Positions 24,211-31,585 of a DNA stretch of 64,000 nucleotides are shown here, one piece after another. The position numbers and the translations under genes were made by a program. Positions within the stretch are counted from its first letter, which is position 1, and each line of letters begins with the position of its first letter. The notes beneath the pieces are model-generated. The model did not search any database. It was not told where the DNA came from and worked only from the letters and a program-made list of their open reading frames with translations. Source of the DNA: Sulfitobacter brevis. GTDB lineage: Bacteria; Pseudomonadota; Alphaproteobacteria; Rhodobacterales; Rhodobacteraceae. The stretch lies in the NCBI RefSeq assembly GCF_900112755.1, contig NZ_FOMW01000003.1:124001-188000 (forward strand), given 5' to 3'.

Positions 24211-25110
24211 TCAACGGCGTATTGCCAGCCTTGCGGCCAGCCAGCCGACCAGCATCAGCATGAAATCCACTGGTAACCAGTCGCGGATCGCCGCCGCATC
24301 ACCAAGGCCGAATGGCGCCAGAAACAGCGCCAAACCGGATAGGTCATCCGGCATCGAAATAAACAGGATCGCCGAGACATTGTTCCAGAAATGCAGGGCA
24401 ATTGCGGGGCCGAGAGAGCCGGATCGTGCGGTCAGATCGGCCATCATCATGCCAAAAATCCCCGCCCAAAGTGCGATCAGAATCGCATTGTCACCGGCTG
24501 AATCGGGCAGGTAATGGCCAAGGGCAAACAGCACCGAGGGCAGCACCATCCACACCAGCGGAGAGCGGAACCTCGCCGCCAGTTGCTGCTGCACATAGCC
24601 GCGAAAAACGATTTCCTCGGCGCTGACTTGCACCAGCACGGCGAGCAGCGAGAACGGCAACAGCACCGCCCAGCGGCTGACCGGCATGTTTAGCGTCAAC
24701 TCGCCGCCCATATCCCAAGGCGGCAACACAAACAGCACCACCGCCAACCCGACCATCATCAGCGAAACGGCGGTAAACTGCGGCACAAACAGCGCCCGCG
24801 GCCCCAGCAAGCTGCGTGCAGAGCGTTTGTGTATTACCCGCACGGCGACGCCGACTGCCACCGTCATAAACACAAAACTGAACAACAGGATAAACATCGC
24901 CGCCACGGTCCGCCCCGTCAGCAACTGATCATAAAGACCAACATCCTGCGGCCCGACAAAGTTATAGACTGTTTGGAAGAACAACTGGTTCAGCGCGACA
25001 TACCCAATAACCGTCAACAAACACCCCAGCGCAAATTGCCAAAGCGCTGATCTGGGGCGGGCGGGCGCGACAAAATCTTCGTGGGCGCGGTAATCAGGCC
25101 GCGAGATCAT
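24211..25110 (-). CDS. CPBP family intramembrane metalloprotease
   Basis: A 299-aa membrane protein of the CAAX protease/bacteriocin-processing (Abi) family. The catalytic motifs are present: EEIVFRG (E165, E166, R170), FALGH (F195, H199) and HFWNN (H240). About seven or eight helices are predicted. The N-terminus (1-20) is cytosolic and basic. Its ATG overlaps the stop of the degenerate ABC gene (ATGA), so the two should be made in a fixed ratio. Family members process prenylated or peptide substrates; the substrate here is unknown, and the ABC protein is the obvious partner. Confidence 0.88.
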   Translation of the reverse strand: MISRPDYRAHEDFVAPARPRSALWQFALGCLLTVIGYVALNQLFFQTVYNFVGPQDVGLYDQLLTGRTVAAMFILLFSFVFMTVAVGVAVRVIHKRSARSLLGPRALFVPQFTAVSLMMVGLAVVLFVLPPWDMGGELTLNMPVSRWAVLLPFSLLAVLVQVSAEEIVFRGYVQQQLAARFRSPLVWMVLPSVLFALGHYLPDSAGDNAILIALWAGIFGMMMADLTARSGSLGPAIALHFWNNVSAILFISMPDDLSGLALFLAPFGLGDAAAIRDWLPVDFMLMLVGWLAARLAIRR

Positions 25111-28100
25111 TGCCGCCGCTCCGGCGCGGAGTGGGCACGGTTACGCACGCTAACCTCGCGTGGCAGGGCGATCTTGGCCTCGCGCAGCAGGTCCGCAACA
25201 GATGTCAGATGCCCCGCCACTGTGTGCAGCAAGCTGAGCAACATGGTCCGGTCACTCTCCATCACAGCACGAAATTCCTCCGCACCGATGCGCAAGAACT
25301 GCACGTCCTCAAGGGCGGTCAGGTCCAACTGGCGCGGCTCGTCCAGAATGATGGCCAGATCACCGATCATTCGCCCCGGCTCAACGTCGGAGACATGATG
25401 CGGCATCCCGTCGAGATCATTCCACGACAGTTCTGCCAGCCCCGACAGACATAGATAAACCGCATCAGGCCGGTCCCCTATGGAGAACACACGCTGCCCC
25501 GGCTCAGCGCGATACCACTGCGCCGAAAAGGCTAACAAGCGTTGGCTGCGCGGGTCCAAACCGCCGAACAGCGGATTGCGGGCAAGAATGCGCAGCTTGC
25601 GCCGCAGATCGGTTGAGGCAGCCTCGTCCTCGACGGGATCTTCGGCTTCGTGCAGACCGTCAATCCGTCCGCCCCGCACCACCACATGCATGTCGAACTC
25701 TTCGGGCTTCTCAAAGCGGTCGCGCAGGTAAATTTGCGTGGTCTTGGGCAGCAAATCACTGAGTCGGTCGCGCAGCTTGGCCTGCGCTTCGGCGTTCTGG
25801 CCGCTGGACAGCTGGTTGCAAATCAAAACATCAGGACGTTTGAGCGCGGCACGCCCCAATGCAGCACGTTCCTGCACCAGCGTTGGCAGGTTGGTGCCGC
25901 CGATCACTGTCGGCAGATCGAACACGAGGGCCGAGATCATCTGTTGTAGCCCATGCGCCTCAAGCACCTCGGAGACCGCATCTATTACCAGATCGGACTG
26001 CACGCCCGCCATCGAAGACACCCGCCCATAAAGCAGGTTTTCCAGTATCGTCAGGCGCGGCAGATAAGTGGTTGGTGCAATCGGCACGAACATATCGCTG
26101 ACCCGCGCCCGCAGGCTGGCGCCGCTGGTCTGGCGAATACGCAAAATCTCTTCTTTAAAGCTGTCGGGAAATGCCGGACCAAACTGTTCGGCCGTAAAGG
26201 CAAAAGGCACGGTCAGCAGCAGCGCGAACTCTTCTTGGGTCAACGCGCCGTCGCCCTTGTCGCGGCGGCGCGAAGCGATATCGACCAGTTGCTCGTAAAG
26301 CTCCTCTTCGATGCCAAGGGCGGTGAACAAGGGATGTCCGGTGCCGTCCATGCCAAAGGTCTGGTGCAGGGTTTCCACCAGCGTCTGCGAGATCGCGATC
26401 CCCTGCTCGGCCAAGCCTTGTTCGGTTACCATCCCCAGAAACGCCCGTTGTGCGGCCAAGCCCTGCTGGCTGATACTGCGGATCGGCGAGGCGAACATCA
26501 GGTTGCTGCCTAAAGGCACGGCAGGGTTAAACCGGTCGGGGTCAAATCGATAGACAACCTTGTTCAACCTGCGCGCTACCAGCTTGTCATGAACCTCGTC
26601 GCGCAGCGCCACCAATTGTTTGGTCAGGTCGGGATGACGCTCGGGGTCGACCTGCATGGTCAGCATGTTGCGGAAGACCATTTCGGCATTGCCCATCGCT
26701 TCGGTCAGACGGAACCACCAGTCGCCGACCTCGGTCGCTTCGGTAAAATCCGCCAATGCAGGATTAAGCCAGTCGGCGGTGGGGTCTTCGCGGCTGTTGC
26801 CTGTCCGGTAGGCCTCCAGCAAATTGCGGCTAAAGCGGGTCTTGCTGCCCTTTGGCTCAAGCGTCGGACCGGTCCTGAGCGACATCAACAAGTTATCGCC
26901 GAGACTGCCCTGAAAAAGATAGGGCTGCGCGGCGGCATATCCGATACGCGCGGCCAGCACTGCCTGATGCAGGGTTGCCAGATCGCGGCCTGCGATTTCG
27001 ATGCGCCCCCGTGCCGGCATTACTTCACGGGTGAGCACTTCGGCCAGCGCGGTGCGCTCCGATTGCACGGGCACCTCGATGGCGACGCGCGCGCCTTGGG
27101 GGATGTGGAGACTGATATCCTCAAGCAGCATGTTGCCGTCGGCATTGCGCACCGAGACGTTGATCATTTCGACATCGCCGTCGAGTCGCGGAATACTCTC
27201 GGGCACGCCTGCAAATAGCGCCTCGTCGACCATGCCTTTCGGCGCGAACCGTTCAGTCACCACGTCCCAGCGCAACCCCATATCCTGCGTCTGGTTGTAG
27301 TAGTCCAACAGCTCCTTCCACGGGCTCGACAAATCCTTGTAGGCGGCCAGCGCCGCCACCAGCGCCCCCACGGTGATCTGCCCCTTGATCGCCAGATAAC
27401 CGCCCACAGCATAAAAGAAGAACGGCGTGAGCTGGGTAATGAAGTTGTTGAGAAACTTCATGAAGAATTTCTTTTGGTAAATCTGGAAACGGATATCAAA
27501 GAGCCGCCCCAGCCGGTCGGTGAACTGCGCCAAGCGGTAGCGCCAGCCGCCATTGGTGCGCAGATCGGCAATGCCCGCCGCTGTCTCGCCAATCTCGGCA
27601 GAGAGCGCCCGCACCTCGATCACGCGGGCTTTGTTCAACTGGTTGATCTGCCGTTGCAGCACCGGAATGAGCCATGCCTGCAGCGGGATCAGCGCCACCC
27701 CAGCCAGCCCGAACCACGGGCTTTGCACAAACAAAAACGCCACGATGACCAGCATCTGTCCCGCCTGAAACACTGGCTGGGCGACGAAATCGCCCATCAA
27801 CCCGCCCATCGGCTCGGCCTCGGAGGTGACCATGCTGACCAATTCGCCTTGCGAAGTGGTTTGGAAATAGCTGCGCGGGAAACGCATCATCCGGTCGATC
27901 AACTGATAGCGAAACCGCCGCAAAAGCCGCTCGGACAACACACCCTTCATGGTGTTCAACCGCATTTTCAAAACGCCGTGCACCAAGACCGCCGCCAGAT
28001 AGGCAAAGCACAGCACAAACAAAAACTGCACCTGAGTGACTTCGGTGCCAAACAGGTCAATGACCGCGTCTTTGGCCCCGATAGCATCGTTGATGATGCG

Positions 28101-28217
28101 TTTGGGCAGTTCAAGCGTCACATAGAGGAACGGGAAGGTGAACAGCGTAAAGGCCAGCAAGACCAGCTGTTCGCGCCGCGAGTATTTCCAGATGAAGGAA
28201 AACAGGCTGGGTTCCAT
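25107..28217 (-). CDS. Degenerate ABC exporter with large insertion and C-terminal cyclic-nucleotide-binding-like domain
   Basis: A 1036-aa protein. Residues 15-305 form a six-helix ABC exporter membrane domain. The nucleotide-binding domain is present as two pieces: 350-446 (Walker A position reads [10 protein letters not shown], 381-390, without the Gly-Lys; Q-loop [15 protein letters not shown], 430-444) and 717-850 (signature position [14 protein letters not shown], Walker B position VLICNQ instead of hydrophobic-DE). About 270 residues (447-716) separate them, preceded and followed by similar L-x-x-N-L-L segments. Residues 870-1010 resemble a Crp-type cyclic-nucleotide domain ([30 protein letters not shown]). 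All ATPase hallmarks are lost, so hydrolysis is unlikely. The ATG at 28217 ([12 protein letters not shown]) is preferred over 28289. Confidence 0.88.
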
Positions 28218-28377
28218 GCACCGGACTTTCGCTTGGGGGCGGGCACGGAGCCGACCTTCGGAGGGGTTGGGCGAACCTAAGCCCAGCATCGCCGCTTTAC
28301 AACATGCCGCCTTGACGCTTGCAGCACTTGGTTTGCACGACTATGCCGTTACAGACACGAATTTCGCGGAGGCCCAG

Positions 28378-30811: not shown

Positions 30812-31585
30812 ATGTCCAAATTCGGGGAGAGCTTTCTAGATGGCAAGCTTTACGCAAGCCAGATCAGACGCTGGGCGATTGCCGCGCGCAAGGCAGGCAC
30901 CACTGACCTTCCGGCCCTGAGGCGTCAGCGCAGCCGCGCTCGGCAATTGAAAACGCATCTCGACAGGCTTTTGCATATCGCGGACGAACGACTGGCATTG
31001 CCGATGATCGGCTCGTCGAGCTTTCCCAAACCGCATAACGCCGATTGGGCGTGGCGGCCCGAACTGTGGCGCGGCCCGCTGCCGATGCCGGGGCTGAGTT
31101 CGGTCAAAACCAAATCGATGCTGGGCAGTGAGGTGACGCTGTTTCACGATTGCGACTTCTCCGAATTGACCCTGCGCCAGTTGCGCAACCTGCGCGAAAA
31201 AGATCTCGCCGCCTATGGGCTGCGCATGGACGTGTTCAAATTTGACGGGTCGTTCCTGTCGCTGGTCATCGACCTGCCAGACACCGCGATCAAAGGGCTG
31301 AAACGCAATCACCTGCTGCGGATGGATGCCATCGTCGAGATGGAAAAACCGCTGGAGATTTTCGCGCGCCTCAACATCAAACACGGACCCAACACCGAAC
31401 AGATTGTCCGCGAACTGCCCCTGAACGAAGAGAACATTCGCGTGGAATTCGACCTCGCCTATTCCAACCTGAACGAAAAGCTGGTGGAACGGGCGTGGAT
31501 TGATCTGATCTTTGAAGGCCCGCAGATGAATCAAGTTATCCTGCGCGATCTGACCTTCTCGCGCCGCCCGCGCGCACAAATCTGA
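30812..31585 (+). CDS. DUF6478 family protein
   Basis: A 257-aa soluble protein conserved in Rhodobacterales. Recognised by the basic helical N-terminus (LRRQRSRARQLKTHLDRLLHIADERLALP), SFPKPHNADWAWRPELWRG, VTLFHDCDFSELTLRQLRN and the all-beta second half (FDGSFLSLVIDLP, EMEKPLEIFARLNIKHGPNT, LNEKLVERAWIDLIFEG). No signal peptide, no membrane segment, no catalytic motif that I can name. It is followed after 11 bases by the 123-aa gene and likely cotranscribed. Function unknown; the beta-sandwich look suggests binding. Confidence 0.8.
   Translation: MSKFGESFLDGKLYASQIRRWAIAARKAGTTDLPALRRQRSRARQLKTHLDRLLHIADERLALPMIGSSSFPKPHNADWAWRPELWRGPLPMPGLSSVKTKSMLGSEVTLFHDCDFSELTLRQLRNLREKDLAAYGLRMDVFKFDGSFLSLVIDLPDTAIKGLKRNHLLRMDAIVEMEKPLEIFARLNIKHGPNTEQIVRELPLNEENIRVEFDLAYSNLNEKLVERAWIDLIFEGPQMNQVILRDLTFSRRPRAQI

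Follow-up and report, generated by a model that had tools for sequence, protein, structure and literature searches.

What can the body of an ABC exporter do once the residues for ATP hydrolysis have gone? The question is raised by a gene in a 64,000-nucleotide stretch of the Sulfitobacter brevis genome (contig NZ_FOMW01000003.1, positions 124,001 to 188,000; hereafter the window), which encodes a transmembrane domain (TMD) of the type IV ABC exporter kind, a nucleotide-binding domain (NBD) split by a long insert, and a fused cyclic-nucleotide-binding domain (cNBD), and which is followed by a gene for a CPBP-family intramembrane protease. A first-pass annotation of the sequence had described a Walker A motif without lysine, a Walker B motif without its aspartate and glutamate, no LSGGQ signature, an NBD interrupted by ~270 residues, a Crp-like tail, and translational coupling to the CPBP gene through an ATGA stop/start overlap; each of these features is borne out (Table 1). 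The reading we favour, with a probability of roughly 45%, is that the protein derives from an ABC exporter and serves as a membrane component of a glycan pathway, in which it would act without ATP hydrolysis and under cyclic-nucleotide control.

Family-wide loss of the nucleotide site

A single scan of species genomes returned 317 relatives; the 80 best loci were retained and, together with the window, make up an 81-row set with open frames of about 1023–1045 codons. According to the tree, 66/80 loci belong to the window's own type (the Roseobacter lineage). The other 14/80, from Moritella, Granulosicoccus, Amylibacter and others, make up a single sister clade with good support, which is grouped with the window's type in one tree and, in another, with a set of second ABC copies at ~50% identity. 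When the window protein is aligned with lysine-bearing relatives, the Walker A lysine column is occupied by Arg388; its Walker B motif ends in C-N-Q (residues 801–802), with asparagine where aspartate is expected, and the LSGGQ signature is missing. Four residues are missing throughout the set: the Walker lysine, the catalytic glutamate, the signature glutamine and the H-loop histidine are each found in 0/81 rows, and likewise in 0/8 of the B paralogs.

Median dN/dS, estimated from 48 of 64 close pairs after the 16 pairs without a usable dS had been dropped, is 0.055 for the TMD, 0.076 and 0.069 for the two NBD halves, 0.079 for the insert and 0.071 for the cNBD; for the former Walker A loop it is 0.097, using whole-gene dS. 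With values of 0.055–0.097 across all parts, the degenerate NBD is therefore under selection: a dead NBD is being maintained. The TMD is also rich in invariant residues in the alignment of relatives. Decay of a single gene, or a pseudogene, is rejected by the 80 open frames and the low dN/dS.

The first-pass annotation had proposed a structure prediction of the NBD region. AlphaFold2, run on 61 sequences (the window protein and 60 of the 80 loci in the structure alignment), gave a model with a mean pLDDT of 81.1 and a pTM of 0.67, weakest in parts of the TMD. The rows from whole-model Foldseek and VIA comparisons are ABC proteins throughout. The whole chain matches 3qf4_A with a Z score of 23.8 (415 residues, r.m.s.d. 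4.5), Z scores among the 50 matches listed being 22.1–23.8. Taken separately and with the insert looped out, the NBD (residues 343–855) superimposes on the ComA NBD with a Z score of 23.2 (221 residues, 2.3 Å). The model thus predicts that the NBD fold is retained despite the loss of its motifs.

The insert, when modelled by itself, is predicted with good local scores (Table 1). In a Foldseek comparison with the PDB, the best of its 120 matches has an E value of 1.9 and none reaches E ≤ 0.001; a known domain is thus not supported by any structural relative from Foldseek, and a new fold is not thereby established. The insert alignment covers 54 of the 80 loci. In profiles made without L166 and L146, residues ~549–614 of the insert align over 65 columns with residues ~704–768, the segment adjoining the signature region; the post-Q-loop segment gives short matches of lower probability (58 and 75). 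Part of the insert thus repeats the NBD helical subdomain.

Site loss is graded in the wider family and is not peculiar to the window gene. ABC relatives at E ≤ 1e-30 are present in 96/289 alphaproteobacterial genomes and in 43/198 Rhodobacteraceae, four of which (G003, G004, G124 and G160) match in the TMD only; phylum-wide, 28/398 genomes match, and the lone one outside the class (G591) again does so in the TMD only. Among 49 wider relatives, the Walker lysine is present in 25 and the catalytic glutamate in 21, and only three, from one genus, combine lysine, serine/threonine, aspartate and glutamate; 15 of the 25 lysine-bearing relatives have aspartate or glutamate in place of the serine/threonine. 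On a 76-row tree made by a quick method with midpoint rooting, the presence of the lysine changes nine times, at least seven of them by well-supported branches, gains and losses not being distinguished. Many distant members are ~880–905 residues long and carry no fused cNBD.

At the far end of this range are members without any NBD. One, a TMD homolog of 420 residues, is encoded in the window's own genome (L208:8253-9515; G000:C34:251252-252511), and since such relatives exist, the membrane body may be useful alone. Comparable NBD-less genes of G138 and L107 have a heavy-metal P-type ATPase (L278) or a multicopper oxidase (L107) close by, a setting that looks like copper resistance. The window's own genome also holds a broken second ABC copy, in separate pieces with in-frame stops (L209; G000:C15:32326-34022), near sequence that looks transposase-like by eye and has no Pfam match.

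In the fused cNBD, G952, D953 and R962 are invariant (81/81), R962 being the cassette arginine, which we take to bind phosphate. The canonical cassette glutamate and the R-[ST]-A motif are missing from the window-type domain, the former replaced by Asp953 in 81/81 and the latter reading R-Q-L in the window. A separate cNBD gene lies downstream of the ABC gene in 6/6 examined relatives, with the canonical G-E-I-A...R-T-A-T intact, and both the glutamate and the arginine of the cassette are kept in the five second copies listed. Judged from these residues, cyclic-nucleotide binding is likely for the family and uncertain for the window protein. Upstream of the second copy, a class III cyclase with a HAMP domain is encoded in 3/15 contexts (L192, L193 and L202), identified by Pfam in L192 (L192:6326-8038) and by 78–82% identity in the other two; a nucleotide cyclase gene also lies ~12 kb from the S. 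meliloti ABC gene. A DUF3307 protein adjoins the second copy in 7/15 contexts (L200:11277-11699 for instance) and in Ruegeria sp. TM1040. No neighbour of the second copies is universal.

A glycosyltransferase cluster, not CPBP, accompanies the family

The association held across the whole ABC family is with a glycosyltransferase (GT) cluster, not with CPBP. Neighbours in the wider family, mostly on the opposite strand, include glycosyltransferases (GT28-like and GT4 by Pfam) and a histidine phosphatase, together with a gene that is annotated as a polysaccharide deacetylase in Azospirillum and has no Pfam match. Of the 96 alphaproteobacterial genomes (out of 289) with the ABC gene, 90 also have GT4, which is found in 93 in all. 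Among the 198 Rhodobacteraceae, the ABC gene is found in 43, a GT28-like gene in 49 and both in 42; all 39 genomes whose ABC match extends beyond the TMD have the GT, and the one of the 43 without it, G160, has an NBD-less homolog only. Physical linkage is also frequent: of 89 typed GT places (from the 93 GT genomes), 67 have a typed ABC place within 6 kb, and in 63 of these 67 cases the two are on opposite strands. GT4 is found in 11 of 12 genomes behind sister-clade loci with no CPBP gene beside the ABC gene, Moritella and Granulosicoccus included. The genome of L104 is without GT4; that of L112 has a GT4 of 34% identity, and a GT28-like gene lies two open reading frames (ORFs) before its ABC gene.

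In Azospirillum sp. B510, the fused ABC gene, importer genes, glycosyltransferases, the histidine phosphatase and the deacetylase stand in succession, and on pSymB of S. meliloti the ABC gene, a Crp/Fnr-type cNBD gene, methyltransferases, GT4 and an importer are near one another. The window's own genome has its cluster of glycosyltransferase, histidine phosphatase and deacetylase-like genes on contig C37 (L223; G000:C37:308000-327900), where it comes after an oligopeptide-type ABC importer and an MscS channel; an importer of like make-up also lies beside the cluster in Azospirillum and S. meliloti.

The CPBP protein of the window carries EEIVFR, FALGH and HFWNN, read as EExxxR, FxxxH and HxxxN, which we take to be the catalytic motifs of the family. 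A CPBP gene followed by accD was detected by script in 62/80 loci, and one in L082 was added from ORF coordinates, so that CPBP stands beside the ABC gene in 63/65 readable loci of the window's own type (L053 was dropped, as its contig ends too soon). The two others, L046 and L072, keep the ABC-accD order without CPBP. Both CPBP and accD are missing beside all 14 sister-clade loci, and no CPBP match was found in any of 15 contexts of the second copies (ORFs of at least 90 residues). Whole-genome searches for a CPBP homolog at E ≤ 1e-8 were negative in the genomes behind L046, L072, L101, L103, L111 and L112; those behind L096 and L107 have one elsewhere, at 35–39% identity. A diverged ABC copy, L205 (G193, 47% identity), also adjoins a CPBP gene.

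As an operon, the ABC-CPBP pair is thus stable within one lineage and is no feature of the family as a whole. The first-pass annotation had suggested that the ABC protein controls the protease or delivers substrates to it, and had looked to homologues with the same losses and gene order: the losses of the Walker lysine, catalytic glutamate and signature glutamine recur in 81/81 and the order in nearly all own-type loci, so that a special link within the window's lineage is possible, while the sister clade (0/14) and the second copies (0/15) do not bear it out as a general role. On the evidence of L046 and L072, the 14 sister-clade loci and the 15 second-copy contexts, CPBP is rejected as a family-wide functional partner.

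Weighing the explanations

The favoured reading is supported by the lost hydrolysis residues, the selection on every part, the NBD fold, the two-gene ABC plus cNBD relatives, and the co-occurrence and neighbourhood of the glycosyltransferases. The protein would serve a conserved pathway for a glycan, either a surface polysaccharide or a glycoconjugate, whose glycosyltransferases are encoded elsewhere in its own genome. Its TMD would run without an ATP power stroke, whether as a transporter that is energy-independent or coupled to ions, as a scramblase, or as a sensor of a glycan intermediate. The remnant NBD with its duplicated helical segment would form a platform, structural or regulatory in nature, while a cyclic nucleotide would tune the protein through the C-terminal cNBD. 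CPBP may be a partner added in the window's lineage. We infer glycan handling, independence of ATP and cyclic-nucleotide control from this body of results; a more specific statement is somewhat less probable, namely that a widespread family of proteins with the ABC exporter fold left ATP hydrolysis several times, with ATPase-dead and even NBD-less members as end points, and that it transports or senses a glycan intermediate on behalf of a dedicated GT cluster, under direct cyclic-nucleotide control.

Several results weigh against the glycan-pathway reading. The window-type cNBD, without the canonical glutamate and R-T-A, may no longer bind cyclic nucleotide; some of the 25/49 wider relatives that retain the Walker lysine may still bind or hydrolyse ATP; and the NBD-less homologs sit in varied gene contexts. 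In the window's own genome, the GT cluster is on a different contig from the ABC gene. Six genomes of the class have the ABC gene without the GT at the cut-off (G241, G268, G365, G423, G451 and G462) and three the reverse (G222, G267 and G321), and seven Rhodobacteraceae have the GT with no ABC match, five of them at 30–40% identity. The Fisher p values for co-occurrence, 3e-63 in the class and 2e-34 in the Rhodobacteraceae, ignore the relatedness of the genomes, and the MFS control gene, present in 160/198, is too common for a sharp control; the GT could mark a life style rather than a pathway. The near-constant presence of CPBP at own-type loci, in turn, favours a job with CPBP there.

That last point leads to a rival that we consider somewhat unlikely, in which the protein is a non-transporting regulatory scaffold or receptor, comparable to the sulfonylurea receptor among ABC proteins, its TMD sensing the state of a glycan or lipid and its cNBD a cyclic nucleotide, and controls the glycosyltransferases or, in the window's lineage, CPBP. 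Such a role would suit a protein that has lost all catalytic residues and is still under strong selection in every part, that carries a cNBD, and whose gene overlaps that of CPBP by 4 nt and adjoins it at 63/65 own-type loci. However, the ABC gene stays in L046 and L072 without CPBP, which is also missing from the sister-clade loci and second-copy contexts, and constraint is strongest on the TMD, where many positions are invariant, which fits a conducting role at least equally well.

Two further alternatives would bring ATP back. A degenerate subunit that shares the ATP sites of an ATPase-competent partner encoded elsewhere seems improbable. Degenerate sites do occur in the heterodimers TM287/288 and TmrAB, the structures of which are among the top fold matches of the window protein, and its own genome encodes other ABC exporters (21–28% identity over parts). 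However, no partner gene is seen in linkage, NBD-less homologs exist, and known degenerate ABC halves usually retain either the Walker A/B set or the signature, whereas the window protein, with neither, could complete neither composite site. Residual ATP binding at a remodelled site, where Arg388-Thr389 would stand in for Lys-Ser/Thr and the protein would act as an ATP-gated switch without turnover, is very improbable. The arginine is kept in 67/81, serine or threonine at 389 in 47/81 and Walker B D801 in 49/81, within an NBD fold that is predicted to persist, but the glycine-rich loop is gone and variable (Walker A glycine columns 1/81, 0/81 and 0/81; glycine at 385 and 387 in 0/81), residue 388 is alanine or serine in 14/81, and the catalytic glutamate column holds aspartate in 1/81 and glutamate in none.

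Known systems and the layout of the locus

The window protein resembles type IV ABC exporters (MsbA, PCAT1, TM287/288, TmrAB and ComA) in the Pfam family of its TMD, its whole-chain fold and the core fold of its NBD. Unlike them, it is without the Walker lysine, catalytic glutamate, signature and H-loop histidine, its NBD is interrupted by an insert that contains a duplicated helical segment, and it has a fused cNBD. SbmA/BacA (SLiPT) proteins are peptide-proton symporters and have an ABC-exporter-like membrane domain that operates without an NBD. SLiPTs are described in PMC10128002 as drawing on the proton gradient. By contrast with SbmA/BacA, the window protein keeps a degenerate NBD, has no SbmA_BacA match (that family is absent from the three Pfam families reported at E ≤ 0.1) and lies in another gene context. 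The sulfonylurea receptors SUR1 and SUR2 are non-transporting ABC proteins that act as regulators and still bind nucleotides; SUR2 is among the fold-match rows of the window protein, but both receptors are eukaryotic and without a cNBD. Some bacteriocin/NHLP-type ABC exporters carry cNMP-binding domains on the same chain, as here, but are presumed to possess a functional NBD and other accessory domains. The downstream gene is a plain member of the CPBP/Rce1-like proteases; joint action with the ABC protein is a candidate role, and the gene is absent beside the sister-clade and second-copy relatives.

No title or abstract on this ABC family was found in the open-access literature, a scope mostly without subscription papers; published mutant phenotypes of the S. 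meliloti gene may have been missed. Single elements are known; the combination of repeated loss, duplicated helical segment, cNBD partner and GT linkage was not found described. ABC exporters are taught as ATP-driven, and a family that occurs in roughly one third of the class genomes sampled (96/289), with sites graded from partly canonical to dead, is natural material for asking whether an ABC exporter body works without hydrolysis. It also provides candidate genes for a surface-glycan system, perhaps an undescribed one, of bacteria such as S. meliloti and Azospirillum. If the more specific statement above, that the family left ATP hydrolysis several times, is true, SbmA/BacA would be joined by a second, independent example of an ABC exporter body that runs without ATP, and one in which intermediate stages survive.

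Table 1 Features of the ABC/CPBP locus in window coordinates (aa, amino acid residues)
Feature	Position	Strand	Evidence
ABC-exporter-derived protein, 1036 aa, ATPase motifs lost, C-terminal cNBD	25107..28217	-	
Transmembrane domain (TMD), type IV ABC exporter, aa 1-330	27228..28217	-	Pfam ABC_membrane 83.9 bits; lowest dN/dS, 0.055
Degenerate NBD, N-terminal part, aa 345-447	26877..27185	-	
Former Walker A loop, aa 381-389; Lys column = Arg388; Lys 0/81	27051..27077	-	
Insert splitting the NBD, aa 448-716, ~270 residues	26070..26876	-	AlphaFold2 of aa 448-718, pLDDT 86.4
Extra copy of NBD helical-subdomain segment, aa ~549-614, within insert	26376..26573	-	hhalign probability 98.4, E 6e-15
Helical-subdomain segment adjoining signature region, aa ~704-768	25914..26108	-	hhalign partner of aa ~549-614
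Degenerate NBD, C-terminal part, aa 717-855; without LSGGQ, catalytic Glu and H-loop His	25653..26069	-	
Cyclic-nucleotide-binding domain (cNBD), aa ~870-1010; phosphate cassette G-D-L-A...R962	25188..25610	-	PF00027 54.4 bits
ATGA stop/start overlap, ABC stop and CPBP start, 4 nt	25107..25110	-	
CPBP (Rce1-like) intramembrane protease, 299 aa	24211..25110	-	PF02517 65.1 bits

The Pfam matches of the ABC protein cover residues 53–290 (ABC_membrane) and 904–989 (cNMP_binding, against a cut-off of 27.5 bits); ABC_tran, at residues 365–457, scores 19.7 bits, under its cut-off of 25, and against NCBIfam the scores shown are all far under the cut-off. A longer ABC ORF would be possible from an ATG at 28289; related proteins begin near M-E-x-S-L-F. 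Elsewhere in the window, a DUF6478 protein is encoded at 30812-31585, and in many loci of the window's own type it lies near ilvD.

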